A stretch of DNA of 64,000 nucleotides from Zygnema cylindricum (taxonomy: Eukaryota; Streptophyta; Zygnematophyceae; Zygnematales; Zygnemataceae). Position 1 is the stretch's first letter; the number at the start of each line of letters is the position of its first letter. Location of the stretch: NCBI GenBank assembly GCA_037447655.1, contig JBBHKE010000209.1:165680-229679 (forward strand). The letters are read 5' to 3'. The notes under the pieces were generated by a model that made no database searches, was not told where the DNA came from, and worked only from the letters and a program-made list of their open reading frames with translations. A program made the translations under genes and the position numbers. This document shows positions 41,881 to 62,250 of the stretch, in pieces.

Positions 41881-42115
41881 GTACACCGTGTATCGTTATT
41901 AGTGTTAATATTTTTTCCGCCACTTAAAAAATATTTTCTCTGTGCACACTTGTCCTATTTTCAATTGATTTTCAATTTGAGACCGCCAATCGGAAGCTGA
42001 GAATCTTTCCTTTCAATCGAAACCGTCGGATTAAAAATCCGACAAGTGTGTACGGAGAAAAGATGTTTTAATTGGCAAAAAAACACATCAACAGTAATAG
42101 CGATACACGGTGTAC
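41881..42115. mobile_element. MITE, GTACACCGTG family, copy 3
   Basis: The element is 235 bp with well-preserved terminal inverted repeats: GTACACCGTGTATCGTTATT against GTACACCGTGTATCGCTATT when the right end is inverted. No coding capacity. Confidence 0.75.
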
Positions 42116-42480: not shown

Positions 42481-44405
42481 TTCCGTACAGTACGCACAAA
42501 AGGTGTAAAATAGGCGTAGTCCTCAAGGGGTCTCAACCATAGTTGTTCACGGCGATTAGTGCGAACGTACCGTACGTGACGAATTATACGTAACAAACGC
42601 ATTGAACCTTTTGATCAAATCGCAAAAAATCGTTAATGAATTCCTTCCGTACTGTTCCGTACATAAAAAAAACAAAAAACTATTACATATAACGCAGTTT
42701 GCAAGTTTTTCGCGTTAAATGAGCGGTAAGAAAATAAACTGTTTATATTTTTATCACAAATATTTTTGATAAAGGAATGGTCTACCAAATGGTAGCCCTG
42801 TCATCCACCATAACATATGCTACAGAGGGAACGCACCCGGGTTCGAATGTTATCAAGATAGTCTTTTTAGCAATTTCGTCTCTGTTCCATGGCGTCTTCT
42901 TTCAAAAAAAATTGAAGAAGACGCCCGTACAAATTTCAAACTGAATGCGCGAAATTATTGTGACGTCCAACGTCTCTTTTCGAAAATGTCCGTACATTTT
43001 CGATTATATAACGTACAACTTCCGTGGTATTTCTGTTCAGTTCACTGAACAGAAAGTACCAATAAGTGCGACGCATATTTCCCGTTATATTCCGTACATA
43101 TCCGTGAAAAAATGTACAGTTACAGTAATTAGTTTACAGATTTCCGTAAAATTTCAGTTTCAGTTTACAGTACACGTTTTTTTCCGATTTTTTCAAAAGT
43201 CACGAATTATACGTTTCAATCGCAAAAAAGGAAAAAATCGCGCGATTTGAACAACTATGGTCTCAACTCTCAAGCCTAGTTGTTCAATACGCGCGTTTTT
43301 TTCATTTTTTCCAGTTTCTAAGTATTGTACGTGACTTTTCAAAAATACGCAAAAAAACGTCTACTGTAAACTGAAACTGACATTTTACAGCGACTAATAA
43401 AAAAAATACTGTAACAGTTAGATTTTTTACGGGAACTGTACGGTAGATTACAAAAAAGATTCGAAGCACGTATCCGTACTTTCTGTTCAGTAAACCGAAC
43501 AGAATGTACATGGATTGTACGGGAAAAGAATGTGACGTCTACAAATATTTCCAAAAAGAGACGTTGCGGCGTCACACTATTTGAGTGCCGTGAGTTCAAA
43601 TTTTGTACGGGCGTATTCTTCAAATTTCGAAAAGAACCCGCCATTATTACTTGAACAGCTGAACGCGAAAAATCACAGAAGATGCCATTACCGACGCCAC
43701 GGCAGTAGTTATTAAACTGAATAAAATCTGATAGAATGGGAAGAAGAGAAAGGGGAGGTTAGGGAAGACGATTCAGTTGAAGACATGATAGACTTCGGTA
43801 TAGGGGAAGAAGATTTAGAGTAAAAATAGTTAAAGGACATATATGTATTTTTTTTTTGTTCTAATGTGATTGTTTTTGTTTTTTTTATCAATGTGTTACG
43901 TCGTGCAATGTTGAATGATGAAAAATGGAATCCGCATATGGCCTGAACTTTGTTTTTTTTAAGTTGCATGCCCTCGGAGAGGTAGAGAGAGAAGGCCATG
44001 GCTGCCTGTCAGACAGGCAATTTTATTATAATAAAAATACATTTCGCAGGATTTGCACCTACGCCTGTTTACATCGTCAATTACACACCGGTACACTCGT
44101 CCTTAACCAGTTGATGTAGATGGTCCGATACATTCATGCGGTGTGATAATAATTTAGTTACATATTGTTTTTCACCGCTCATTTAAGGGAAAGCGTACAA
44201 ACTGCGGTACATGTTCAATTCATTTTTTTTAAATGTACGGATTTGTACGGAAATTCATCAACGTTTTTTACTATTTTTTCAAATCGACCTCTCCAGTTTC
44301 TACGTATTGTACGCGCGTTCGAAACGTGCGTAAAATAACGTTTTGAACAACTATGGTCTCAAGCGCACTACGCCTATTTTACACCTTTTGTGCATATAAT
44401 ACGGT
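42481..44405. mobile_element. Nested foldback (long inverted repeat) DNA element
   Basis: The outer arms, 42481-42741 and 44161-44405, are inverted copies sharing GCACAAAAGGTGTAAAATAG and the motif AACTATGG. An inner near-palindrome of about 690 bp (arms about 42925-43260 and 43265-43612) has almost no loop. Inner and outer arms share sequence, so both belong to one family. There is no transposase-like reading, so it looks non-autonomous. Confidence 0.65.
42925..43612. repeat. Inner ~690-bp near-palindrome
   Basis: Left and right arms of about 340 bp match when one is inverted, for example CAGTTTCAGTTTACAGTA and CTGAACAGAAAGTAC occur in both senses. The centre is near 43264. Such a structure could form a hairpin RNA if transcribed. 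Confidence 0.7.
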
Positions 44406-46113: not shown

Positions 46114-47517
46114 TAGAAATTTCACACAGAGACAATTGTGTCAATTTGATGTGTTGTGTATCCTCCCATAAAAAAGACCATAAATTATAGAATCGATATT
46201 TTATATTTATCAGCTTTGCGATAAGACGGATTTGTCGTTATTGCAAAGAGGAGGCACGCCCAGTTTTTGACACATGAAATCATTCATAAAAGGCTATTAT
46301 TCGATGCCCATTGTTGTGGCATTGTGCGAATCGGCGAGCGGCGGAATATCGACACAATGTTTTGTTTCTATTTAGTGCATCGAAATGTACTATACTATCT
46401 CATATCGTGCGCATTCGTTGTTTTTGTGCGTATGGCCTGGTACTTTGAGCCTTCCGAGATGTGCCCATGTAGCCGAAACATGGACATGTGACTCTGTACT
46501 TTACTTACGAATCTACTTAATATTTTTTAGTGAGCTAAAACGAAATTGTACTTAAACCTGTACGATTGTAAACGTGTATAAAACTTGTGACAGTTGTAGA
46601 GACCTACAGTAGGGACAGTTGTAGACGTAGTTTTTTTTTTACATTGTAAATGGTTAGGATTTGGTTTTTGACATTATGATGTTATGCTCACCTACGACAG
46701 CGTCGACGTCACTAATTCCAAAACTTTAAGCCGTGGTTTCTCTATTATTACTTTTTTGACTTTTGTCACTAATCTCCCATCAATCCACACCCAAAGGTAG
46801 TCAAACAAAAATTGTTTTATGAAATCTTTCATTTTTTATTAGTATTGTCTTCTTTCACAAGAGGAAAGAAAGAGGAATCGTAGGGTGGCAAGGAGAGGGG
46901 GAGCCCACGACGTCGTAGAATTTTGCAAATGACCCACGAATAAAAGTGGAAATCCGAGACGCCTACAATTTCGTTTTTCAAACATGACTAGATGAGAGGA
47001 AAAAAACAAAAGTCTTCTCTCCCCCGTGCAAAAATGTTCAAATATGTGTGGCAAGTGCAAAAAATATTTCATATTTGTTGTCAACTGTTGCTTTAACTAA
47101 AGTCAAAGCTCGAGTTGATTTCAGTATAAGTTTGACGATGAGCTTTAATGACGCGATAATGGGTCAAAAAAAGTAGACACAAAATTATAATGCATTCAAG
47201 GTTTCAGATGACGTCAATTGTGCTATGGATTTTACACATTTCCTTTATAAAAGAAGATTTTCTCGTTGCATATTAAATTCTAGAGGAAAACAACAGAAAA
47301 AACATCTCGCACATCCCTTTAACCAATCGCACGACAATTCCGGTACAGATGCATTAACTATGGCATCGTGTGTTTTTCCTCCAGTCAGCTTTCAATAAAA
47401 GTATGAAGGGTTGTCTGTTGGTGTTTGTGAAGCATGTAAAATAGTGTAGCTGCCCTGTAGGATAAAGAAGGGATGTGTGTGGACAGGTTGTGTGGGAGAA
47501 TTTCAGGTGTTATGTCA
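46114..47517. other. Intergenic DNA left of the gypsy element
   Basis: No recognisable gene or repeat. The sequence does not match the region preceding the right-hand copy of the LTR, so the left LTR appears truncated. Confidence 0.5.
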
Positions 47518-48828
47518 TGTCACATCTCGTCGGACATTTTAATTATTTATATTTAGGTGTTAGGACGGGCAGCCGCCACACTAATTTGTATTTGGCTGTT
47601 ATTTAGGTTTTGCATGAGTGTGCGACGTGTAACGTACGACCTATATTTCCCGCAAATTCCGTAATGACGATTTTGGACCGTACCAGCAATCCTATCGTAC
47701 AACATATATTTTCCGCGATTTCCGCCGACGAAGGATTTGATTATTTCGCGTCGACCGTACGACTTACGTTGACCAGAATTCCCGCGCCACAAATTGAACT
47801 GTACCGGCGGTCGTGTCTTACCTGCTTTCATTTCTCACATTATCCGCCAACGAACTGTTTTCGAATTTACAGCCGTACAAATAATCTTTGTACCTGCATC
47901 TCCCAAAATTCCGGCCGACGATGAATTTGACCGTTAAGCACGAAGGAGCATCTCGATCGTCGATGCGGAAATATACAATTGCGTCGTGAACAATTTGGAG
48001 GTTCACGCATTCACATGTAGATAGGAAGGGTTTTAATCCGTTGGTTATAGTTTCTGTAACGTAGGGCATAGGATTTCGACCTTTTATTGGCTGAATTCAA
48101 ACTAGACGCAAATACTTACATAGCACGCTATACTATGATTGACCTGTTTTCACTAGGCGTAGTTTTTGTTTCTTAGTTCATTTCGAATCATTTCCTGCAC
48201 ACAATTTTGTTTTCACTAGGCGTAGTTTTTGTTACTTAGTTCATTTCGGATTATTTCCTGCACACAATTTTCAAGTGCAAGAATTTTTTATTTTCAGTAT
48301 TAAGGATTTTCTGCAGCCATTTTTTATTTGTAAAATTGTCCAGACAACTTAGAGGCGATTTTCTGCCTTTGCGTTAAGCGTCTAGTTTTCTATTACATTA
48401 TCAATATCTTTTAAAGCCTTACATATTAATCTATACGGCTTTGGCCAAGACCTACACGGTTTCCTTTCACTTTTCTCGTCCTTTTGAGTGGATTTCGACT
48501 GCGTTCTCACGACACAAACTTCTTTTCCCGGCTGTGGTTGAGCTTTAATTAGTGTGGAAGTTGCATGTTGGGATAATTGATTTGTTGTTTTTATTTCTTG
48601 TGATTGTGTATTTATTCCTATTTGGCTTATTGCCATCTTTTGAGTTTGGCTATCTCAAACTTCATAAGTGTCGGCATATTGTCATTTTCAATTTGTGTTT
48701 GTCTTTCTCGGTTGTTTATGCTTTGATTTGTTTTATTTACGTATAAATTCAGATTATCCTTGATAAGATAACTCATGCAAGGAATATAAATAGATCGTGG
48801 GGCCTAGTGGTCATCCATTGGCTTAGTA
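47518..48828 (+). repeat. Left LTR portion
   Basis: This segment is homologous to 58358-59757. It begins TGTCA and contains a TATA-like AATATAAATA at 48783. It carries an internal 63-bp tandem duplication (48146-48208 and 48209-48271) absent from the right copy. The small open frames inside both copies are not genes. Confidence 0.7.
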
Positions 48829-50133
48829 TTCCTGCACTTGAAAATTGTCGTATTTTCTTTTCTCGATTGTTTGTTTTTATTCTAATTTCGGTTTTCTTTT
48901 AATTTAAAGAAAAAATAACAAAAATATTAAAAAAATCAAAAATATATATTTATAGATTCATTTCTACAAAAATCTATACCTAGCTTTACATTTATAATTA
49001 CCATTTGCTTGTTAGTTGACGTTTTATCTTATTGGCCAATTTTCGGCCAACGATATACTACACTAACTTAAATATTTGGTTTTTTTTTCCCTATTTTCTT
49101 TGTGATATATAAGGGGCATCGTTTGCTCACATTGAGACATACTTCACTAAGGAGTGGAGTCAGTGGAGCGGATCCGTTCTAGGGAGCTCTGCAAAACTTC
49201 GGTTGTAGCGAACATCCGCAGTTCACCCTTGGCAATCACCAGATTGCTAAGAGTGTTATGTAAGTATCACGATGCCACATCCGCAGTTCAACCTTAGCAA
49301 TCACCAGATTGCTAAGAGTGTTATGTAAGTATCACGATGCCTTGTGGGTACAGGCGCGTGCTAAGGTAGTCGGTTGATCGTATAGAGGGATCGTGTTTGG
49401 AGTGGATTAGTGTTAATCCACTTGTATTGAGCATTCCATTTGTCTAGCTTTCCATGTTTGTTATCTGGCCTTGAGTGGCCTTGGCTGAGTTTGCTTTGCC
49501 CAGTGTGGGATTTCTTCCATAGATCTTGCCGGTGGAGGCATTGGTTAGCTCAATTGTGGATTGTGCCGCTTTAGATTTGCACTTGGGAGTGCTTGGATCG
49601 AAAGTTCTTTGCCTTTATAGATCTGGCCCTTCGGCCTTGTCCCCTTATTTGCAGGGTAGAAGGTTTTGATAATACGACTTCTTGATAGATCTAGCCACCG
49701 AGGCCTTGTTGGAGGTTGTTTGGCTGATTGGACAGGAGAGTGGTGTGGCCTGGCATTTGAAACATATCGGATTGATCGATTTTGTTATCTGGTCATCATT
49801 TCGTGTTATCATTTTTTATGCCCACCGATTGGGATAATCTCGATTATCCTATCGGAACCACCCGATCCTCGGCCTCATTTAGGCCCACAGAATCAAAACC
49901 ATCAAATTTACCTAGTCTTTTGGACAATCATTTCCCGAATATCGCGGGTCAAATTACCACTTCTTTTTGATCGGCCCTTACTTTAGTATATTTCCTTATC
50001 ATCAGTCCCATCCACATTTTTCGAGGAGGAATCTGACCACGATTCCCTTGACAGGTCGGATTCTAATTCATTGTCTTTTTGGTTTCCACAAATTACAAAT
50101 TCATTATTATCCCCAATCATTCCATTATTGGAA
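48829..50133 (+). other. gypsy leader region
   Basis: AT-rich sequence with a second TATA-like TATATAA at 49106 and a 65-bp tandem duplication (49212-49276, 49277-49341). I could not identify a convincing primer-binding site. Confidence 0.5.
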
Positions 50134-51490
50134 ATGGCTTCCACATCCAAGGAAGGTGGTCGCCTTCATTTCTATATTTCAGGAATGAAGGACGCCATGA
50201 CTTTATTGCGTTTTCGAATGCTATCCGATACCGAAATGTGTGATCTTGCATTTCGGTACCGAGATCGGTTTGACCTACGGGTCGCTTTCTCTCTTTTAGG
50301 CCGTTAACTTTGCGGTTCAGCCCTTCCTCTTTATTCCCGCAAGTATGATTCCGTACTTGCGATGACGGAGTTTTGTGATTACGTACTTGCGATGACGGAG
50401 TTTTCTCCAACGTTCGCTGGGAGTCTTGCTATTATAGGACAACCAAAAATTCCTTATCAACCGGCTATCGCGGAAGTCCTTGATCTCAAGGGCGATGTTA
50501 TTACAGCAGCGGTTGCAGAAATACCGCAACAGTTTGTTATAGTTGCACGTGCTGGAATCCCACCACGACCACCGATGACGACCCGTATACTGGATCCGCT
50601 CTTTGTCATGTTTGAAATGTTGCAAGCAGAATACCGTATGCAAAACCCCGACCAAGTTTGTGAGTTAATGAACTTCGAACGGAAGTCCGGAGAGACCGCC
50701 CCTGCCATGCGTACTCGTATGGAAGCTCTTTGTGAAGCATTGCTGGCTTAATGTCGGATGCTGAAGCTGTCCTGAAATTTGTCAGACAATTTCCTAGTCA
50801 GTCTAAGAAATTTATTCAGAGTCACCTGACTCAAATGTACGGCTTGAAGTTCACTTACGACCAAGCCGCCTAGAATGCCGTGGAATACGAAATGCAAAAT
50901 TGTTGGTGGGAAGCCTATGACCATCCTAAAGCGGTCCCGAAAGAACCAATTGTTCCACCATGGAACAATCCTCGTCCTAACAACCAGACTCCTAAAGTCC
51001 CGGCCATAGGAACCCCACCTATTGTTCCCGGAAACCGATAATGTTTTCGATGTGGGAAGATGGGGCATGATGCCCGAATATGTCCAGACAAAACCGTTAC
51101 CTGTACACATTGCAAGCAAACCGAACACTTTGTCCAACGTTGTCAGATAAAGAATCCGGAATTTTCTTATCAAAACCAAATTAAAAATGGTGGCATTCCC
51201 TCTCAATCCGAAAAACCGGTTCAACCAGTTAAAGAACCGGAAAAAAACACCACTCCACCTAAGGTATCTCGAAAGAGAGAGAGCGTTTAGAAATGCAAGA
51301 GCAAATGGCGGCTATGATGAAGGAACAATTCCCAGCCTTCATGACTCAAATGAAACCACAATTTACTGGCATGGCTCGCACTGTTGTACACATGCCCACG
51401 TTGGCAAGTCAAATCTGACGAGATTCCACCATCCAACAATGAGAGGCTATGTTCGACAAAGGTTTAACCGATCACAGCCCTGATGGTAAA
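50134..51490 (+). pseudogene. gypsy gag with two CCHC zinc knuckles
   Basis: The start MASTSKEGG at 50134 is followed by one long coding stretch broken by TAA at 50305 and a one-base shift near 50750. The capsid-like helix block includes RQFPSQSKKFIQSHL. TAG at 50871 and TAA at 51039 interrupt the frame. Knuckles are CFRCGKMGHDARIC (51042-51083) and CTHCKQTEHFVQRC (51102-51143). A frameshifted tail (EMQEQMAAMMKEQF) contains two TGA stops. A 30-bp in-frame tandem duplication (50352-50381, 50382-50411) repeats ten residues. Confidence 0.8.
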
Positions 51491-51573
51491 ACCCCTAACA
51501 CACGCATTCCTTTGTCATTCACTAAAGAGCCTCCTCCTCCCTTGCCGAAATCGCTTCAGCCATCGCGGCTGAA

Positions 51574-51697
51574 GCTCTTAATATAGTGGATCGAACTATA
51601 CATGAGGCACACCGCGTGAAAGAACGCTTTTGCAAGCTCTCAACATAGTGGATCGAACTATACATGAGGCACACCGCGTGAAGGAACGCTTGTGCAT
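51574..51697 (+). repeat. 62-bp tandem duplication in the gypsy coding region
   Basis: Units are 51574-51635 and 51636-51697 with a few differences. The length is not a multiple of three, so it shifts the frame between gag and protease. Confidence 0.9.
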
Positions 51698-51865
51698 TCT
51701 ATCCACTATGATTTCCGACTCACCAAAAATCTCCCCTATCTCCTTTACCTCCGAGAGCTAGCTGGACCTTCCGCGTTACAAGCACTTTAGCTGCACAAAA
51801 ATCTTGCTGCTATTTAGCCTATTTCCATAGAGGAGAGAAATTCCCTCGATCCTCACATCAGTTTT

Positions 51866-52200
51866 TTGGATAACGGGAAGGGTGCATTATTGATCAATGG
51901 TATAGCCCCTTCCCTGCCTTTCAAGGATACGGGTGCAAAGCCGCTGATATTGGGCTCTATCTTTGCACTCAAGCTTGGTCTAACTCCGGACAAACTTCAA
52001 TCCACTTCTACTCGCTTGTTAACATCAGCGGGTACAACCGAGCCAGTCTTAGGAATCATCAACGAACCGCTTGTTTTCAAGTTCAGAACGGAACGGCCAC
52101 AGACTTTGCTGAGATCTCGGTTCACGCTCTGGTCACTAAATGTAGTGACTCTGAATGCCTAGTGGGACAGGACGTTATATTTTGCGTAGGGGGTGGAGTT
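51866..52200 (+). pseudogene. gypsy aspartic protease
   Basis: The active-site triad DTGA is at 51926-51937 within PFKDTGAKPLILGS, followed by FALKLGL as in retropepsins. A frameshift near 52100 moves the continuation (LVTKCSDSECLVGQDVI) to another frame. Confidence 0.8.
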
Positions 52201-52559
52201 GTTATGCATGATCAGACTTTTTCTTATAGGCCCACTAACTTCCCAGAACGCAAAATCTGCATTCCACTAATTTCCGCCAAGAAGCCCATGCATGTTATGG
52301 CAAATTCGGCAACATCTATACCTGGATTTTTAGGGAATTCGGTGGGGGGCGAAATATTTCATTCATTGTCAGCAGAAGAAATTTTGCCTGATAGTCCTTA
52401 CTTACCAAAATATTTTAGTGACCCAAGTTTTCTTATAGATACGAAGGAATTTGACCGAATCCATAAACAAACCTTGTCAATTCCACTTACTCCGGTCTCT
52501 CTTACAATACCAGTCCCTATAGACTTTTTGGGTTTCTTCCCATTAATTAGAATCTTGTC
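52201..52559 (+). pseudogene. gypsy linker between protease and methyltransferase
   Basis: This is open sequence in one frame with AEEILPDSPYLPKYF and FDRIHKQTLSIPL. I recognise no domain. It ends at a TGA, after which the methyltransferase is in another frame. Confidence 0.5.
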
Positions 52560-53568
52560 GAATTGAAACCTCATCCAAACGGATTAGTGATTTTGGACCT
52601 CTTAGCTGGAATAGGCACTTCCCTTCTTGCATGTTTGCGAAATGGATTATTAATCCGATTTTATTATTCTGTTGAGATAGGTACTTTCGCGTGGAAACCA
52701 CAGATACATCATTGTGATCTGTTGCATTCCCTATACATGCATTTGTTACCAAAATTCGCATATCAGCATATGCATACTTCCCTTCCACAAGACATACGGA
52801 TTGTGGGCAACCATCATTTACAGGATATTGGTCCAGCCGATCTAGTTTTTGGCGGATGGGAGTTCCAAGGAATGCCTTGGGTTGGGAAAGGTCTCGGATT
52901 AGCCGATCCCCGCACCAAATTATTTTTTGAATGGGTTCGCATTCTGCATTTTCTACAAACTTTAGGTCATCCTATGGGGTATATCTTGGAAAATGTTGCA
53001 GCTTATAATGACCCAAGACTTTAGTTTTGGCTGATTATCAACGGATCGAACAATTAATTTGTCCGCCTCTTATTATTGACGCGGCTCGCCATAGCTCACT
53101 AGCATAGCGTGTTCGCTCCAAATAGACGAACCTGATCGATATTGGTAGACTTCGTGAGGCCAACTTGTCAGTTCGTCCTCCTCCTATAGACATTTAGGCT
53201 ACCCTTCTTCCTTTTCATAAGGTGTAGTCTTGCACTTAAAGGACTTTCCCCTTAATTCCAGTGTCAATGTCCCGGGTCAACCTCTCAAGGTGCTACCTAC
53301 CTTAGTTTCTTACCCACATTAACATGCATTCTCTCATGACGGACCTAGCATGCTCCGAAACATTCATACCGGTGAGCTCAAAGAGCTTACCTCTACAGAA
53401 CGAGAACACATCATGCATTTCATTCCTGGCACTACAGCCGCTATAGGTATTACAAAATGTCAAAGATGCACTTTATTAGGTCGTGTCATGGACCCTCAGT
53501 CTTTGTCTTTTGTTTTAGGTCTTGGGTTTGCAGCAGGTCGCCACTCTCACGCACATCTGTCTTAACCA
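52560..53568 (+). pseudogene. Retrotransposon-encoded cytosine-5 DNA methyltransferase
   Basis: Motif I is LDLLAGIGTSLLACL (SAM binding) and SVEI follows as motif II-like. Motif IV region is FGGWEFQGMPW then GKGLGLADPRTKLFFE. Motif VI is ENV at 52989-52997 in YILENVAAYNDPR. A motif VIII-like block (DAARHSSLA, stop, RVRSK, stop, TNLI) lies at about 53080-53135. The C-terminal block has ELTSTEREHIMHF and LLGRVMDPQSLSFVL, before TAA at 53563-53565 or so. The catalytic Cys of motif IV is Phe (52863-52865), so this copy cannot methylate. It is placed between protease and RT, about 330 codons. Stops and one frameshift occur in the second half. Confidence 0.88.
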
Positions 53569-53572
53569 GCTC

Positions 53573-53581
53573 GGGGGGGGG
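53573..53581 (+). other. Internal G9 tract after the methyltransferase
   Basis: Nine G's followed by AAT, preceded by CCAGCT. The element's terminal polypurine tract at 56968 has the same G9-AAT and a nearby CCAGCT. It could be a central polypurine tract or a scar of how the methyltransferase was acquired. Confidence 0.5.
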
Positions 53582-54006
53582 AATGCATCAAAAAAATCTT
53601 TCCGTCCTACTCTCGAAGGGACCATATTTCAATTTTTCCTTTTTCCTTCTTCAATTCTACCAGTTCCGGAAATCTCTATCTACGATTTCCTCAATCCTAG
53701 CCATATGTCTTGGTCTATACTTGCATACACGGCTGTCCAGTCTGCAAGTTTCATGCATATTCCACCCTCTCCTCATTGAAATGCTGCTTTTCGAACACGT
53801 AGTTGGAATCATTCGGTTGATTGCCTTAAACATTCACTTGTAGCTTACGAGTAAGGTCAAACGCTTATCGCAGATGAGCAGTTAGCCTTTGCACAAGCTA
53901 TGGAAGTTATGACAACCGAAAATCGAGATGCTCCTAAATGGAAATTCGGCACCAATCTAACAAAGGCCGAACAAGATTTAGAGAATGACGTACCTTTGCC
54001 TTTTCT
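53582..54006 (+). pseudogene. gypsy linker before RT
   Basis: The main frame reads AYTAVQSASFMHIPPSPH, a stop, then NHSVDCLKHSLVAYE and LIADEQLAFAQAMEVMTTEN. No known domain, but the frame is coherent and leads into the RT. Confidence 0.5.
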
Positions 54007-54690
54007 ATGAACGATTTCGAACGTTACACCGCTTATAAGATGTCGATAAATCTTAAAGATGACAGCCCGATATTTAAACCAAAACATGGTTTGTCAAAAA
54101 CTGAATCGGAAATTATAGACAAGCGAGGTGCTGAACTAGAGGAAGCTGGCCTAATTTATCGGCCAGACTCCACATTTGCATCTCCCACTGTCATGCCTCC
54201 GAAAAAGGATTCCGAGTGTAATTTTAGTGAACGTCGAATGTGTGGTGACTATTGTGAACTATATACGTCGAATGTGTGGTGACTATCGTGAACTAAATGC
54301 TAGAACAGTTCAAGATCGTCATCCCATGCCTTTTGTCGAAGAAATATTTCATCACGTAGGCGGAGCAAAGTATTTTAATATCCTTGAACTCCATCAAGGA
54401 TTCAATAAAATTGAGATAGAGGAGAAAGAATGGCATAAAACAACCTTTTGGGGTAGTGACGGCCGATGGGAATGGGTCGTAATGCCATTCGGACTGAAAA
54501 ATGCTCTGGCAGTATTTCAAAAAGTCGTGGACTCCGTTCTTGGAGGTTGTAAGTTTGCTAGATGTTACATCGATGACCTCATCATTGCCTCGGTAACAAT
54601 CGAGGAGAGTGCTGCTCACATCGAATGGGTATTGACTGAATTAAAAAAAGTCAGATTAAAATGTCATCCAGCGAAATGCACCTTTTAGGC
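54007..54690 (+). pseudogene. gypsy reverse transcriptase
   Basis: The N-terminal part has HGLSKTESEIIDKR and SPTVMPPKKD. A 34-bp tandem duplication (about 54232-54265, 54266-54299) repeats RRMCGDY and shifts the frame. The palm has QDRHPMPFVEEIF, MPFGLKNALAVFQ and the catalytic YIDD at 54566-54577. A TAG at 54686 interrupts just before VTYLGHFIS. Confidence 0.95.
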
Positions 54691-55380
54691 CGAGGGAGTG
54701 ACTTACCTCGGCCATTTTATCTCGGCTGAGGGGATAACTCCTCTCGAAGCAAAGGTAGAGGGAATCACTAAATTGCCTTCTCCCACCGACCTCACAAGTC
54801 TGCTAGCCTTTCTCGAACTTGCTAATTATTATCGTTGGTTTGTATCTAATTTTAGCACCATCACATGTTCGTTAAACAACCATCTCAAGAAGGAAGTGGC
54901 GTTTATATGGGGTCCCGATCAGATTTCCGCATTTAAAAAATTAAAAACCGCCTTATCGAGTGCTCCAACTCTTAGTCCTCCCAATCACAAACTCCCTTTT
55001 TGTCTCCAAACAGATTTTGGGAAACCCGGAATCGCTGCCATCTTGACACAAAGAGAGTTGAGCGGAGAGGAATACGTAGTCGCTTACGCGAGTAGAAGTA
55101 ATAATTAGGATGAATCAAATTATAGTAGCTACGAAAGAGAGTGTCTAGCCGCGGTTTGGGGAGTCGTGCACTTCCGCCATTATTTGTACGGAAAACCTTT
55201 CACACTCTTAAGTGACCACCAGCCCTTACATTGGCTGATGACGAACGATACGCTTTCCGAGAAGCTAGCCCAATGGGCTTTAATCTTACAAGAATATGAC
55301 GTTGAAATAATTCAACGACCTGGTCTGCTTAGTCTAAACGCAGACAGAATTTCCCGAAATCCTTTGTCCGAACGATAGAT
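54691..55380 (+). pseudogene. gypsy RT thumb and RNase H
   Basis: VTYLGHFISAEGI and LANYYRWFVSNFS are the RT thumb/connection. RNase H follows with CLQTDFGKPGIAAIL, YASRSNN, a stop at 55106, then ECLAAVWGVVHFRHYLYG and LLSDHQPLHWL. It ends near LNADRISRNP, a changed version of the usual HADGLSR motif. Confidence 0.93.
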
Positions 55381-55422
55381 AACGGAGTTCGACATGATTT
55401 CGATGATGACGAAGTTCTCGTC

Positions 55423-56430
55423 ATGTCAATGGGTTCTTATCTTACTTACTGCCTGGCCTCTATTCCGAACCCCCGTCTCGCCAAATATCGTTGGCGTGAT
55501 GGGCCTCTCATTCTTTTCCTATCCTCCCAGACCTTCAGGTCCGGCACAACCTCTGATGAAGAAGACAGAGTGAAAAAAAGGGCCAAAAGTAACCTTTGGC
55601 TTGGAGGATCTTTAGTTTGGTTGTTGGCAGACGGAAACCATAGGCACGTTCCATGGCCTACCGAGCGTCTTTCTCTCATTGAGCAGATTCACACTGAGCT
55701 TGGTAACTATGGTATTAAGCGGTCGTTAAGTCTAGTTCAGGCACGGTATTGGTGGTCAGGAATGCAAGCTGATGTCGTTGCTATTCTACACAAGTGTGCC
55801 ACCTGTGACCGTCTCCGAATTTCCTTCTCTAATCAGCAAACTACGCTCCAACCTCTACCCATTAGGGGTTTATTCTATCGATGGTCGGTTGATCTGGCCA
55901 GACCTTTTCCCATCTCACGTAGAGGGAAACAATATATAATGATTATGATCAGAAATTTCAATTAGTGGGTAAAAGTTGTAGCCCTGCCTCATAAGACAAC
56001 TAAGTTAACCACCGCAGTTTTTAAGGAACATGTCTTTATGAGATACGGTGCCCCAGCCGAGGTCTTTACGGATCAAGGTACAAAATTTCGGGGAGAATTT
56101 CAAGAGATGCTTGATGAGGCTCTCATCAGTCATCACCGTACCAGTCGGGATCACCCCCAGGCCGATGGCCTGGCTGAACGGGCAGTCCAAACATTTAAGC
56201 GTGCCTTGCGTAAGCATTGCTTAGAGAAACACATTTCGGTTTGGGACGAGTCTCTAAGCTACATTACCATGGGATATCCCATCTTAGTTCATGCTAGTCT
56301 GGCTAATTTCAACCCGTATTGTGTTTTATTTGGGCGACAACCGTTCCTTGGTCACAATATTCAAAAAGCTGCAGGCTTTCCACTTCCGCTGATGTTTGAC
56401 ACTATCTTTTTGAAAAACTCACTCGTTGTG
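55423..56430 (+). pseudogene. gypsy integrase
   Basis: The zinc-binding N-terminus has HTELGNYGIKRS and CATC, where the second His is Asn. Catalytic residues are all present: Asp 55891-55893 (RWSVDLA), Asp 56071-56073 (FTDQGTKF) and Glu 56176-56178 (DHPQADGLAE), with 34 residues between the last two, one fewer than usual. A TAG stop lies at 55963. The frame is lost after about 56400. Confidence 0.93.
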
Positions 56431-56555
56431 CTTTGCTTTTTGCCCATGAAATGCCCATGTCTTTTGATAACCTGCAGATTGCCTAGCATCGGGAAACAAT
56501 TCGGTTTGCCATCACTCGAAGCAACAGTTATAGGCCGCAACAGAAGCCATATCGG

Positions 56556-56960
56556 GTGGGAGACTATGTTTATCTTCGCAGGCAATCTTTTGACAGTTTG
56601 GACACGGATGTTTCTGCACACATCCTACGGATTATCGAGGTGGATCCGAACGGAATGTCGGGATTACAAGGAGCGGACACGCGGACATTTCGCGAGCACT
56701 CCAAGAATTGTGCTCCATGTTATTTACAAGATTTGTCGCAGGATATGGATCCTATGCGGATGCCAATTACAGAGGCGACATCATGTTCCTTTTGTCATCA
56801 ATAGGACGGGGAAACTACCATGTCACTTTGTGATCACTGCAATCAAAGGTTTCACATGGAGTGTTTGGTGCTACCATTGTTGGCGGTTCTGGATGGTCAC
56901 TGGTTTTGCTACGGATGTCGCGTGCTTCCGGTCATGTTGGCTAGCTCTTCTGCCAGCTAA
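56556..56960 (+). pseudogene. gypsy polyprotein C-terminus with PHD finger
   Basis: GDYVYLRRQSFDSLDTDV…ILRIIEVDPNG resembles the GPY/F-like module after integrase. A C4HC3 PHD finger follows at 56784-56918: C-x2-C-x11-C-x2-C-x4-H-x2-C, then W-x-C-x2-C (CSFC, LCDHCNQRFHMEC, HWFCYGC). One TAG stop (56802) lies between the first and second Cys pairs, and the polyprotein ends at TAA 56958-56960. PHD fingers typically read histone H3 tails, so it may guide integration, as chromodomains do in chromoviruses. Confidence 0.88.
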
Positions 56961-56967
56961 AGAGCTT

Positions 56968-56976
56968 GGGGGGGGG
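56968..56976 (+). other. Terminal polypurine tract (G9)
   Basis: Nine G's lie seven bases after the polyprotein stop and immediately before the sequence (AATAAACTGACC) that also occurs at 59758. This position fits the primer for plus-strand synthesis. Confidence 0.6.
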
Positions 56977-59757
56977 AATAAACTGACCTGACCATAACCA
57001 GCTAAGTCGTTGATCTTTCTTTTTCTTCCACCTTGTTTGTTGTTGTATTTATCCATTTTTTGTTAAAGAGTGATATTTTATATTCTACCTTTTTTTTGGG
57101 GTCTTGCAGTTCTCATACTTGTCGTAGTCACTAAAAATTGACATGCAGCTATGGCTGCCTTAGACACATGAGAAGATAGATAGAAGACAAGGCTCCTGCA
57201 AACTTTATGTTGCCACAGACAGGATTTGATCTTGTTACCTCCGGATGAAGGCCGTACGGAATAGGTGTCCGCCTTATCTGTTAGGTCCTTATGAATCAAA
57301 ACATTCATTATATTTGATAATTATTTAAAGATGACATGGCGACATGTTCCTTTTAACAATTTACGGAACAAAACGAAACATGGAACGTGCGGTACCGCAC
57401 GAAATAAAGTACACGAAATAAATGAAACAGACATTTAATTTCGACGAAAGAAATTAAATGTCGTGATCTACGTCTCGCAAAACAAAAAGGAAATTTAAGC
57501 GGTCAACACGGAATGTTGAGCGTTGAAATTCAACGGTCAACACCGAACTTTGACCGGTGGAATTCAACGGTCAACATTTATTCGGCGCGCTGTCATATCG
57601 AATGGCTGCAATTGATCACCATGAAATGAACGGATGGCACGCGTGAGTGTCGGTATGCAGGAACAACTATCTGGGAGCAATTCGGCGAAATGGGAGGAAA
57701 TGACAAGTGGCATTATCCTATAGGATGTTGAAAGAGAAAAGGGACAGAATGCCATTGACCTATTAGACACGTGGCAGACCGGGAGTGGTGCCGAATATAT
57801 CCGTACATAAAGTACGGAGGTTGCTGTACTTTGTATGTACAATAATTAGGGTACTTTATTTTGATTGGTTTAAAGTAGCTATTAGGAGTTTTTTAGGACT
57901 TAGACAAAATTTGGAAAGTCCTCTCTCCAAGAGGCTATCTGTACAAATATGATGTCTTTGAACAAGCATAACTTAATGCTCAGGTGAGCAAATTCAATGA
58001 GAGGCCATCTGTACAAATATGATGTCTTTGAACAACCATAACTTAATGATGAGGTGAGCAAATTCAGTGATTCTTTTTGCAGCGGACCCAGGGGAGTCCA
58101 GGCTACAAAGTGTTGTAGTCATTCAAAGTTTTTTCATGCCAGGGTGGCATTTATTCATTGCCAAAGTCGAAGTGCTAATATTATCCTAGAGGCTTCATAT
58201 AAGCTGGACATTCTGTGTACCAATGGAGGTCAAAGAATTACATTTTTCACTTTTACGTCTTATTTCATTCACAATATCTTTCATCATTTGGGTTTAAGTG
58301 GAGCACAGCTGATGATATTGCATGCATGCTCACGTTATTTGACACATGCACGACAGCTGTCATTCCCAATCTCGTAGGCCATTTTAATTGTTTATATTTA
58401 AATTTTAGGACAAGCAACCGCCACACTAACTAATATTTGGGTGTAATTTGGGTTTCGTAGGACTGTACGACTTGTGCAGTACTACATGTAGTTCTCGGAA
58501 TTCTCGCGACATCTTGTACCGTACGACCGATATTTTTCCTGATTCCCGCCGATAGTGAATCAGGTCGTTTTGCGTCGACAGTACTTATTTATTTGTCCAA
58601 GAATTCCACCGACGACTCATGTTCAAATTCACATCGGTAAAAATAAACTTACGAAACTGCATATATTCTCCGCGATTCCCGCCGACGGTGACTTCGATCA
58701 TTTCACGTCGACCGTATGATTTACATTTTTCGGAATTCGCGCGATGACAAAGTGGACCGTACCAACGGTCTTACTGTACAAACTTTCAATCCCTTAAATC
58801 CCGTCCGAAAACAAATTTTAATCATTTCGTGTGGAGTAGCATCTCGTTCGTTGATGGAGAGTATTCAATTTTCGTAACATCACATCTTGACCGGCGACGC
58901 AAGTGACACACAAAGCAGCTGTCTGTTCTGACGAAGCGACGTGATTGGACCATTTTTAGTCGTGAACCATTTTGATGTTCATGCGTACACATGTAGATAG
59001 GAAGGGTTTTACTTCGTAGGTTATAGATTATGTAATGTAAGGCATTGGATTCCGGCCTCCTATTGGCTGAATCCAAACTAGACGCAAATACATACATAGC
59101 ACGCTGTACTCTGATTGGCCTATTTTCGCTAGGCGTAGTTTTTGTTATTTAGTTCATCTTAGATTATTTCCTGGTCACAATTTTGAAGTGCAGGAATTAT
59201 TTATTATTCATTGGTTTATTTTCAGTATTGAGGATTTTCTGAAGCCATCTTTTTATTTGTAAAATTGTCCGGACAACTTAGAGGCAATTTTTTGCCTTTG
59301 CGTAAAGCGTCTAGTTTTATATTACATTATCAATATCTGGTAAAGCCTTACATATTAATCTATATGGCTTCGGCCAAGACCTACACGGTTTCCCTTCACT
59401 TCTCTCGTCCGTTTGAGTGGATTTCGACCGCATTCTCACGACACAAACTTATTTTCCCAGTTGTGGGTGAGCTTTAATTAGTGTGGAAGTTGCATGTTTG
59501 GATTTATTGATTTGTTGTTTTTATTTCTTTTGATTGTATATTTATTTCTATTTGGCTTATGCGCATCTTTTGAGTTTGGCTATCTGAAACCTCATAAGTG
59601 TCAAGCATATTGTCATTTTCAGTTGTTGTTTGTCTTTCTCGGTTGTTTATGCTTTCATTTGTTTTATGTAAGCATAAATTCAGATTATTCTCGATAAGAT
59701 AACTCTTCCAAGGAATATAAATAGACCGAGGGGTCTAGTGGCCATCCATTGACTTAG
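56977..59757 (+). repeat. Right LTR with ~1.2-kb insertion
   Basis: It starts AATAAACTGACC after the polypurine tract and ends with the segment homologous to the left LTR (58358-59757), including TATA-like AATATAAATA at 59714. Comparing with 59758-59945 suggests that about 57063-58245 is an insertion. LTR limits are inferred from repeats, not from clean TG/CA ends. Confidence 0.5.
57931..58070 (+). repeat. 70-bp tandem duplication
   Basis: Units 57931-58000 and 58001-58070, both containing ACAAATATGATGTCTTTGAA, differ at a handful of positions. Confidence 0.9.
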
Positions 59758-59945
59758 TAATAAACCGACCTAACCATAACCAGCTAAGTCGTTGACCTTT
59801 CTTTTTCTACCTTGCTTGTCGTTTTATTTATTTATTTTTTTCTTTCATGTCTTATTTCATTCACAATATATTCTCATCATTTTTTAGTGGAGCACAGCTG
59901 ATGATATCGCATGCATCTTCATGTTATTTGACACATGCACGACTG
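59758..59945 (+). repeat. Second, truncated LTR start
   Basis: Sequence 59758-59840 repeats 56979-57060, and 59850-59945 repeats 58258-58355. The LTR start thus recurs directly after the right LTR and is cut off at about 59945, where unrelated sequence begins. Confidence 0.6.
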
Positions 59946-62250
59946 CAGCCAGGTCGGCTGTTGCCCCAAGGGCTTCGGCGTCCAAAGCCGCATTTGAGTT
60001 TTTGATGGTAGGAGCCATCAATGAGGGTTGACGCTCCTTATAGTCAGCCAAAGCTCCCCCGGCTTGATAGTTGACCATCATAGGAAAAAGAGTTGTCTCA
60101 AAATACCATAAGATGGCCCCTCCGCTGTATTTGTTAATTTTAGACTGCATGTAGGATTTCCACATTAGTTCAAAATCAAAAAAGCAATTCTCGAGTTGTC
60201 CTCTGTGAAAATCTAGATGTCCCCCATTCTCTTTTCTTCCTCGTTAGGACTGGTGAACCCTGGTGAGGCCTGTCCGATGGGGCACACAAAGTGAGCCAGT
60301 GAGATGGCCCAAAGATCTGAAATCTCGAGATCCGAACCAGTCCCTCCTCCAATAGGAAGGGGGGTAGCAATAGCACTGGTTCCCTTCCCCACTGAGGAAG
60401 GTCTTGCTCTTGAAGAAGTTGTCTGATTGTGTGCTCTTCTATATCAAAGAGATGCTTGTTCCTCCCTGAGAACACTCTCCGCCAAGGGGACGTGGAGACG
60501 GGGTCTGTTCAAACGAGGTCCTTGGTGAATGAATGGTGGCGAAGACGAAGATGATTGGGTGCTTTTAGGAAAAAGTGTCTCTCTCCCATGCCGCTTTCAG
60601 GAGGTCTCGAGAGGAGGAGTTCATGAGCTAGAAGATGGGGAACGCATGTGAGGAGGTGAGTAGGCGGGGACGTGTGCGTAGGGTAAGACACGAGGGTCCG
60701 GTGAACCACGGACAATTGCAGCGGGAGAAAGAGATGACGAAGGAGAGGAGGCGTGAGGTGGTGATGGTGGAGGAGTGGAGAGTCTGAGGGAAATGTGTTG
60801 TCTCCGGTCGGGTTATAGTTGCACCACGACCTCCACAGTGGCAAACCCACCACCGAGACAAAGGTGGGCCGCTCTCTGGAAGCGGCTGCCAAGTTACCCT
60901 ATAGATCTTCACCCAACCCCTCTCCGTTAGGCCCTATTGTTTCCTCCCTTTCCGGATGAAGAGGAGATTTTGGTCTAGGTCCCGATGAAATCCTTAGTGC
61001 TTACGTCGCATGCGAGGTTGCCTGACCCTGAGGTTGTCCTCCCGCAGAGGGACTTGTCCTACGTGGAGGATCTACCTGTCCACTAAGGATCCCTCTTGAT
61101 CTCCGTCTAGCCTTTCGAATGAGGAGCATTTCGTGTTCCAGTGCCTTCTTCCTTTCCTCTTCAAAAGCCTCTCTGTCTATTGTGACGGGTTCGACCCCGG
61201 CCGTAGCCTTAATCTGCGACCGCAGGATATCAACCAATTTCTTGGTGCTGATTACCACACCGGAGAGATCTGCCATCCCCAACTTCAGTACCTCGAGATT
61301 TGTGGGTCTCAAACGCCATAACCCTTCGGAAGGTTGAATAATCGGTGCTGATGGAGATAGGGAGCTCGGAGAGACGGAGGCGAAAGGGAAGAATGACTCT
61401 TTTTTAGGTCAGGGAGCAAACCTGCCCTTGCTGTCTCGATGGTCGAACCGGTGTACCCTCTTGGGTTTTGTAACCCCCGCTTGATGGTTCCTTCCCCGGC
61501 CCAAGCTCGAGAGGTTTCTTTGCCCCTAGACAGTCCAGTGGTTGTAGTGTCCAAAGATTGGGTGGGTTGCTGGTGTGAGGTTGATGGCATCCCCAGTTGC
61601 TCTCGGACTGAGGTTGAAGAGCCGCTCTCGGACAAACTTCTTATTATTTCCACTACACCTCCCACTGGGCGTACGATCCTGGCTCGGTCTGTTCTGGCTA
61701 CCCGCTGCACTAACTCTTTCTTAACTTTCAACTCATGGAGATTTTGAAGGGCCAAGATTTCCTTACGACCTGGCCGGTTAGGATCTGCCAATATTTCAGG
61801 ATCCATGTACATCTTAGCTGTTGGATCCTTAGATCTTGAATAACACCCTACTTTGGGAGGGTGACCAGGGACCGATTCCTTATGGGCCAAACCCTTCCTA
61901 CGTGATTTAGGAGATAACGTTGATTTCTCAATCTCTGCGGCCCGAGCCCTAGCAGACTCGGACAGCGTAGAGAAGTTCTTTGGAGAAAAGACAAGCGGAG
62001 GTGGAGGAGAGGGTTACCTCACTGGGTATTTTGGAGGAGTCTCACCTATAACAGTCTCATGTATCATTCCATTAAGAAACTCCTATGTGTTTAGAGGCGA
62101 GGCAATGGGGGCTAATTCCTCGAGAACTTCTGACTCTTCCTCGTGTGCCACTGCTTCTTGCATCTCCCGCTATTCCGTCTTGACACCTCAAAGATCCCTA
62201 TCCTTAACTTCTCCTCCTCCCATAACAAAGTGGAACCAAGAAGCTAAATC
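59946..62250 (-). pseudogene. Unassigned transposon-like reading frames (gag/ORF1-like)
   Basis: A coherent minus-strand frame runs from about 62230 to 61309 with two stops, Pro/Ser-rich and charged (ESARARAAEIEKSTLSPKSR, RIVRPVGGVVEIIRSLSESG). It continues in another frame at 61312-61001 with a helical EEERKKALEHEMLLIRKARR. Lower down, 60165-59946 reads SGGAILWYFETTLFPMMVNY. I recognise no family. Composition and decay suggest gag or ORF1 of a retroelement inserted in the LTR fragment. Confidence 0.4.

Follow-up and report, generated by a model that had tools for sequence, protein, structure and literature searches.

A decayed Ty3/Gypsy element with a cytosine methyltransferase and a PHD finger

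We analysed a 64,000-nucleotide stretch of DNA from Zygnema cylindricum (contig JBBHKE010000209.1, positions 165,680 to 229,679 of the forward strand), hereafter called the window. A broken Ty3/Gypsy retrotransposon spans window positions 47513-59946 on the plus strand. Its domains follow one another, all on this strand, in the order CCHC gag, protease, Dnmt3-type DNA methyltransferase (DNMT), reverse transcriptase (RT), RNase H, DDE integrase and a C-terminal PHD finger (Table 1). Domain coordinates from the protease to the PHD finger were obtained by tblastn with a homologous contig, L001 (CADCWO010000201.1). In the window, DNA_methylase, RVT_1, RT_RNaseH_2, Integrase_H2C2 and PHD scored above the Pfam cut-offs; the integrase core did not (E 0.055). 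The reading frame is interrupted by stops and frameshifts, with one stop within the PHD finger. The element was assigned to Ty3/Gypsy by the order protease-RT-RNase H-integrase in Pol and by Ty3 being the nearest PDB match of both its RT (1.1e-23) and its integrase (4.1e-6). No full long terminal repeat (LTR) lies at both insertion ends. Split repeats, A1 on the left and B1-A2-B2 on the right, are found instead.

An original prediction, made from the letters of the window, had described protease, methyltransferase, RT, integrase and PHD finger between LTR-like repeats. These domains were all recovered, in order and on the plus strand. The predicted PHD finger has its C4HC3 ligands and a significant Pfam score, although its frame carries the internal stop. 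The methyltransferase is also there, but it is frameshifted and its motif IV reads GWEFQG, the catalytic cysteine being gone. The description of the repeats did not hold: they are split direct repeats, the layout A1-coding-B1-A2-B2 rules out a reading as terminal LTRs, and the element extends beyond the range first proposed. Judged from its sequence, the window copy is dead, with a DNMT devoid of its catalytic cysteine. It is best explained as an old, decayed member of an abundant Ty3/Gypsy family.

Table 1. Features of the element in the window (position 1 is the first letter of the window)
Feature	Position	Strand	Evidence or remark
A1, split direct repeat on the left (first letters TGTCAT)	47513..48828	+	matches A2; ends agree with copies such as C1915
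Self-primer segment inside A1 (candidate)	48264..48284	+	reverse complement of 48828-48848, 21 nt, 95%
Candidate primer binding site at the end of A1, with its complement in the element's own sequence	48828..48848	+	19/20; 20/20 in C1915 and C829
Gag zinc knuckles, two CCHC	51042..51143	+	read in translation; Pfam zf-CCHC 2.2e-6, two stretches
Aspartyl protease fragment (DTGA)	51926..52084	+	tblastn with L001 protease 1.3e-6; Pfam 0.0035, below cut-off
Dnmt3-type cytosine methyltransferase	52578..53547	+	three frameshifted pieces; tblastn set E 2.5e-38; Pfam DNA_methylase 7.5e-6
Central G9 tract, motif as in the 3' polypurine tract	53568..53584	+	two such sites only in the window
Reverse transcriptase (YIDD), 34-nt tandem duplication inside	54046..54721	+	tblastn; Pfam RVT_1 2.2e-18
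RNase H	55004..55363	+	tblastn; Pfam RT_RNaseH_2 1e-16
Integrase: H2C2 zinc finger, DDE core, C-terminal part	55597..56606	+	tblastn; Pfam Integrase_H2C2 3.5e-12
PHD finger, C4HC3, one internal stop	56784..56921	+	Pfam PHD 3.9e-9 (X at the stop); conserved in copies
Polypurine tract (G9) immediately before B1	56968..56976	+	same motif as the central tract; motif region 56963-56979
B1 repeat	56977..58357	+	186-244 nt in six other copies; 57062-58241 is extra in the window
Palindromic B/A joint GACAGCTGTC	58352..58361	+	GACA-NN-TGTC in 10/11 joint-keeping copies, window included
A2 repeat	58358..59759	+	self-comparison, copies
B2 repeat, right end of the element	59759..59946	+	self-comparison, copies

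The same architecture recurs in the host genome and in a second contig

The DNMT piece of the window (P0001) was used to search the 353-Mb assembly of the same genome (2689 contigs) and returned 150 scored matches from 1187 candidates. One of them, G000:C157:237671-238102, lies on the window's own contig, about 8 kb past the right end of the window. Twenty copies were fetched from the match list, picked for long open frames or a stop-free match; the DNMT is thus present in all 20 by selection. In the first batch, ten long copies, the order protease-DNMT-RT-RNase H-integrase-PHD was found in 10/10. In the second batch the PHD finger was present in four of ten (C750, C2293, C2337, C216). Copy C2053 kept the integrase end and lost the PHD finger. 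In C1949, C2100, C633, C837 and C1772 the integrase end too was not found at its expected place in the fetched stretches, so that the 3' part of each is either absent or lies elsewhere.

In copy C1344, DNMT and PHD finger lie within a single open frame of 2395 amino acids, which by coordinates also contains CCHC, protease, RT, RNase H and integrase. The distances between domains are correlated among the ten copies, with r=0.95 for DNMT-PHD, 0.82 for DNMT-RT and a minimum of 0.43 for protease-RNase H. The median ratio of nonsynonymous to synonymous substitution rates (dN/dS) was 0.21 for the DNMT (5 of 28 pairs usable), 0.17 for the RT (8/45), 0.21 for RNase H (9/45) and 0.09 for the PHD finger (10/45). 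Pairs were usable only at 0.05<dS<1.5, the remaining ones being outside this range.

Contig L001 (GC 0.52) carries two frames, gag-protease-DNMT and RT-RNase H-integrase-PHD, with one in-frame stop between them. It is 41-43% identical to the copies of the Zygnema genome in the DNMT and 49-52% in the PHD finger, and its integrase matches Pfam rve at 6.7e-14. The two ends of the contig overlap by exactly 127 bases, like a closed assembly path. Since L001 is filed under a cyanobacterial bin and encodes an element of eukaryotic type, it is probably a contamination of that bin. The contig might stem from an alga of the Klebsormidium kind, whose comparable element is described below.

The badly broken state of the window copy could suggest a chance composite of nested fragments. 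This reading has a negligible probability and was rejected, because the same order occurs in 10/10 copies and in L001 and because one copy holds it in a 2395-residue frame. Comparison of the copies therefore supports one element family bearing DNMT and PHD finger in one polyprotein. The original prediction of a writer and a reader in one polyprotein agrees with the frame of C1344 and, but for one stop, with L001. The expected co-occurrence of the two domains was seen in 14 of the 20 copies, in one of them within a single frame; in the other six the PHD finger was not found. Intact relatives without DNMT or without PHD finger, which would have spoken against the prediction, were not seen among these 20 DNMT-selected copies.

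Split repeats, outer ends and joints

Self-comparison of the window gave the layout A1-coding-B1-A2-B2, and all four repeats were found in 7/10 copies of the first batch. The two A and the two B repeats of a copy can be nearly identical (A/B identity 99.5/99.5% in C1915, 99.6/99.5% in C829, 100/99.6% in C1344). A1 was located at 15 left ends, that of the window among them, and none of these has a B in front of it; in C1407, A1 was not found. The window B1 contains 1.18 kb (57062-58241) that is missing from B2 and from the B repeats of the compared copies.

The outer ends of the element read TGTCATG...CACGACA. Both ends could be placed in 12 copies, the window and 11 others, with the left start of C2053 placed by alignment. 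Exact 4-bp target duplications flank six of these 12: CCCT in C1915, AAGG in C829, CCAT in C232, TTGG in C1344, CCCC in C2602 and GTGG in C2053. An exact duplication is expected by chance in about 1/256 per copy.

The two internal joints behave differently. At the B/A joint the palindrome deviates in one joint-keeping copy, C216 (GACG-GT-TGTT), and the spacer is 2 nt long in 11/11 copies, GC in nine. The genome-wide pattern CATGCACGACA-N{0,6}-TGTCATGCCG gave 182 B/A sites and the reversed control none; these sites are pattern matches, not tied individually to DNMT-bearing copies. In all 100 among the matches listed (of the 182 sites) the spacer is exactly 2 nt, mostly GC. For the A2/B2 joint, the pattern GGCTTAGT-N{0,14}-AAACCGACCT, which is restricted to one subfamily and to gaps of no more than 14 nt, gave 54 sites, the control again none, and the joint took 24 forms of 1-10 nt. 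By raw count, with no null model, 41 of the 54 joints, including 14 plain joins, have no letters other than those that prolong A into its primer site, B back into its G tract, or both. In the remaining 13, 1-3 additional letters are needed. Outside this search, primer-site-like letters stand between A2 and B2 in C216 and C2526, and A2 is shortened in C232 and C1407. A variable A2/B2 joint with primer-site or G-tract letters is as expected from end-joining of finished complementary DNA (cDNA) ends.

Primer sites and polypurine tracts

The candidate primer site just after A1 is complementary to the A repeat of its own element. In the window, complementarity reaches 19/20, as compared to at most 17/20 among 8101 control 20-mers. 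Each further copy was tested with 500 controls. The match is 20/20 in C1915 and C829 (best control 15), 18/20 in C1344 with a different sequence (best control 16) and 16/20 in C2602 with a third one (best control 15). Three different primer-site sequences are thus each complementary to their own A. In the minimum free energy fold of the C1344 leader, the primer pairing is present with a z score of -4.1, none of 100 shuffles being as good.

On the other side of the coding region, a G9 tract immediately precedes B1. A G-run of similar length also follows the DNMT in 10/10 copies and is a candidate central polypurine tract.

In the single LTR-like zone of contig L001, CTTGACTTGACA and TGTCAAGTCAAG form an inverted pair of 12 bp around TCTT; no pair of this kind arose in 300 mononucleotide shuffles. 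L001 also has a self-complement of 17/19. Inverted pair and self-complement together suggest the same scheme in another organism.

The methyltransferase and the PHD finger

A DNMT profile made from seven copies of the genome and L001 was compared to the PDB. DNMT3C, DNMT3A and DNMT3B came out on top (3e-16 at best), followed by weaker matches to HaeIII (2.3e-7), HhaI (2.3e-6) and DRM2 (1.8e-5). The motif order I-IV-VI-VIII-IX/X is unrearranged. DRM methyltransferases have a rearranged order, and motif order and PDB ranking together rule out a DRM identity. The cysteine of motif IV is kept in 13/15 distinct copies of the genome, the window being counted among the 15 (12 GWECQG, 1 GLECQG), and L001 has GWPCQG. 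Phenylalanine replaces it in the window copy and in C906 (G000:C906:59087-59554); the two copies may both descend from one inactive enzyme, or the common residue may be coincidental. The full match of the window DNMT was obtained via L001, and its C-terminal piece alone gave nothing useful against Pfam and PDB.

The PHD finger was recognised by its C4HC3 zinc ligands and a Pfam score over the cut-off. Its profile is closest to the fingers of Lid/KDM5, PHF12 and CHD4, which does not settle the histone mark. In chromoviruses, a chromodomain follows the integrase. With matches admitted to E 1, neither the window piece nor C1344 (L023:2-895) nor L001 showed a chromodomain, and the PHD finger stands at that place.

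Base composition was considered as a possible trace of self-methylation. The observed/expected CpG ratio is 0.88-0.95 in the coding stretches of the ten copies, with no obvious CpG loss. In the window it is 0.87 for the element, 0.82 for the DNA on its left and 0.62 for that on its right. CpG depletion as such a trace was accordingly rejected on the ratios in copies and window. Between A1 and A2 of the window, CpG to TpG/CpA changes (30/134) are in mild excess over other C/G transitions (94/729); host methylation would give the same.

A proposed insertion cycle

The genomic copies combine one polyprotein, split repeats, TG...CA ends with target duplications, a constant B/A joint and a variable A2/B2 joint. 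By the rules of LTR reverse transcription, the primer site and the polypurine tract set the limits of the LTR. A primer site after A1 and a polypurine tract before B1 thus imply an LTR-type cDNA in which B followed by A forms the LTR on either side of the coding region. In the cycle that we propose, the RNA would act as its own primer for reverse transcription: a stretch of A would pair with the site just after A1. The G9 tract before B1, possibly together with the central one, would serve as the start of the plus strand. The outer ends of the resulting cDNA, the start of B and the end of A, would have no TG/CA signal, and their imprecise joining would produce a two-LTR circle with a variable A/B joint. 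The DDE integrase would then cut within one of the two LTRs, at the palindrome GACA-GC-TGTC, and insert the circle thus opened. Opening of the circle at this palindrome would account for insertions that are arranged as A-coding-B-A-B, end in TG/CA and are flanked by 4-bp duplications.

This part of the scheme, from self-priming to the opening of the end-joined circle within one LTR, appears likely from the repeats and joints. In addition, the DNMT may methylate the cDNA or the circle, and the PHD finger, by analogy with the chromodomain of chromoviruses whose place it takes, may tether the integrase to a histone mark. These two steps are the weakest part. To the reading as a whole, a class of retrotransposons with an ordinary DDE integrase that would not use the linear cDNA ends, and whose end-joined two-LTR circle is cut at a mid-LTR palindrome, could be marked by the DNMT and could be placed by the PHD finger, we give a probability of about 0.6.

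Several observations weigh against this reading. Circle, cDNA and cut are all inferred from genomic copies, and the two genome-wide joint counts have the scope given above. In four of 15 B1-bearing copies (C2577, C783, C750, C2293), A2 does not follow B1 in the fetched stretches. Unrelated DNA comes after B1 in all four, with the break directly past the GC spacer of the palindrome in C2577 and C750, and A2-B2 is not in the fetched stretch of C2577 and C783. Among them C2577 seems young, its A and B being 99% like those of C829. These copies might have arisen by recombination, from one-LTR circles or through nested insertions. The target duplication fails in six of 12 copies: C449 has 3/4 letters and the window, C2526, C216, C2577 and C783 have none. 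Primer complementarity in C449, which has the same third sequence as C2602, is 15/20, equal to the best control (15), and no self-complement was found in C2526 and C232, at boundaries set beyond or before the real end of A1. The fold of the window leader contains the primer pairing but only weakly beats shuffles (z -1.93, 1/20). As regards the DNMT, the window pieces with motifs VIII and IX-X alone barely beat shuffles (equalled by 75 and 48 of 2000, respectively), and the CpG content of the ten copies and the window gives no hint of self-methylation.

Alternative readings

The repeat layout is that of PAT, and the repeats of a Klebsormidium element are described as having DIRS structure (PMC5890265). 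In a DIRS/PAT-like cycle, the A1 and B2 ends would be joined on the internal B1-A2 splint and a tyrosine recombinase, perhaps acting in trans, would insert the circle. We find this improbable. A DDE integrase is encoded in the window, in the copies and in L001, whereas Pfam scans of the gag-protease, DNMT-RT, RNase H-integrase and integrase-PHD stretches of C1344 and of the scanned L001 stretches contained no tyrosine recombinase, so that its presence in the element was rejected; none in trans was looked for. The DIRS model moreover predicts no target duplication, and exact 4-bp ones flank half of the placeable copies; nor does it predict a variable A2/B2 joint with polypurine and primer-site letters. 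One could also suppose an ordinary LTR element, with two-LTR circles whose insertion yields the split-repeat copies as a side product, as primer site and polypurine tract do delimit a normal LTR made of B and A. This is equally doubtful: B is missing before A1 in each of the 15 left ends, the duplications border A1 and B2, and the TG...CA ends fall inside the would-be LTR.

A different question is whether the DNMT and the PHD finger take part in the cycle at all. They may be passengers, or the DNMT may act on host DNA or RNA. CpG content that is not lowered fits such a role, as does the loss of the catalytic cysteine in the window copy and C906. Retention of that cysteine in most copies, the low dN/dS in the few usable pairs and the conservation of both domains in a contig as distant as L001 speak for a function in the element, and we regard the passenger reading as rather unlikely, though deserving more weight than the two preceding ones.

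Other features of the window

Tandem duplications that are close to perfect, their units 34-71 nt long, were found at 48145-48271, 49212-49341, 51572-51696, 54231-54298 and 57930-58070. Several of them in one decayed element look like a local mutation habit of the Zygnema genome. Long inverted self-matches occur at 42908-43627 and 41881-42115 (about 73% over 725 and 245 columns). Ten other open reading frames of the window had no Pfam match above cut-off. Rfam and tRNA scans, and a scan of viral contigs for DNMT, RT and integrase, gave nothing useful.

Relation to known elements

Capture of DNMTs by retrotransposons, mentioned in the original prediction, is already published for charophytes and dinoflagellates (PMC5890265). 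The closest system by description is KnitGypsy-Dnmt3 of Klebsormidium nitens (de Mendoza et al. 2018), reported to have Gypsy domains, a Dnmt3 inside Pol under purifying selection and DIRS-structured repeats (PMC5890265). A Gypsy element with an unrearranged Dnmt3 in Pol and split DIRS-like repeats is also what we find in Zygnema. The main text of that paper mentions no PHD finger, present in the Zygnema element, and we found in it neither target duplications nor a primer site, a variable joint or a route of integration for KnitGypsy-Dnmt3 (PMC5890265). As compared to that account, the TG...CA ends with 4-bp duplications, the fixed palindromic B/A joint and the variable A2/B2 joint are new here. 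The same paper describes SymbioDIRS-Dnmt3 and SymbioLINE-Dnmt, retrotransposons with a cytosine methyltransferase; enzymes of the former methylate CG in yeast. These are DIRS (tyrosine recombinase) or LINE elements and independent captures, whereas the Zygnema element is a Gypsy (PMC5890265). A 2025 paper places some DNMT3 members inside retrotransposons and names LTR Copia and DIRS families (PMC12344493).

REM1 of Chlamydomonas carries a PHD finger and a chromodomain, and we know of no DNMT in it. Tf1/sushi and Tcn1-like Gypsy elements have ordinary LTRs and a chromodomain, unlike the split repeats and PHD finger of the Zygnema element. REM1 is described as an algal Ty3/Gypsy whose integrase is truncated and lies in reverse frame (PMC2774666). 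PHD domains in CR1-like LINEs have been announced in the title of a publication. Self-priming is predicted for the Tf1/sushi and Tcn1-like elements (PMC6317226); the primer-site complementarity seen in the window, C1915, C829, C1344 and C2602 may point the same way. PAT and the DIRS group have A1-B1-A2-B2 split repeats, and a circular intermediate has been proposed for DIRS1-like elements (PMC4157794, PMC3266345). They differ by a tyrosine recombinase and, in the DIRS1 model, by no duplication, as compared to the DDE integrase and 4-bp duplications found here. HIV-1 and foamy-virus integrases are reported to cleave palindromic two-LTR joints, which resembles the proposed cut by a DDE integrase; their palindrome is the LTR-LTR joint, whereas that of the Zygnema element lies inside the LTR (PMC1905944, PMC1180852). 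In the open PMC literature we found no Gypsy element with DNMT and PHD finger and no account of the proposed insertion route, a weak negative since most subscription papers are outside it.

Significance

Whether two-LTR circles are true precursors for retroviral-type integrases is a long-standing dispute. Many genomic copies of the Zygnema family appear to record the circle joint, which makes this question testable by sequence and simple biochemistry. If the proposed cycle is true, each insertion would keep its own circle joint as a scar, and DIRS-like repeats in a Gypsy element would be accounted for. Finally, with a DNA methylation writer beside a chromatin reader, the element would offer a direct test case for the contest between transposons and host silencing.

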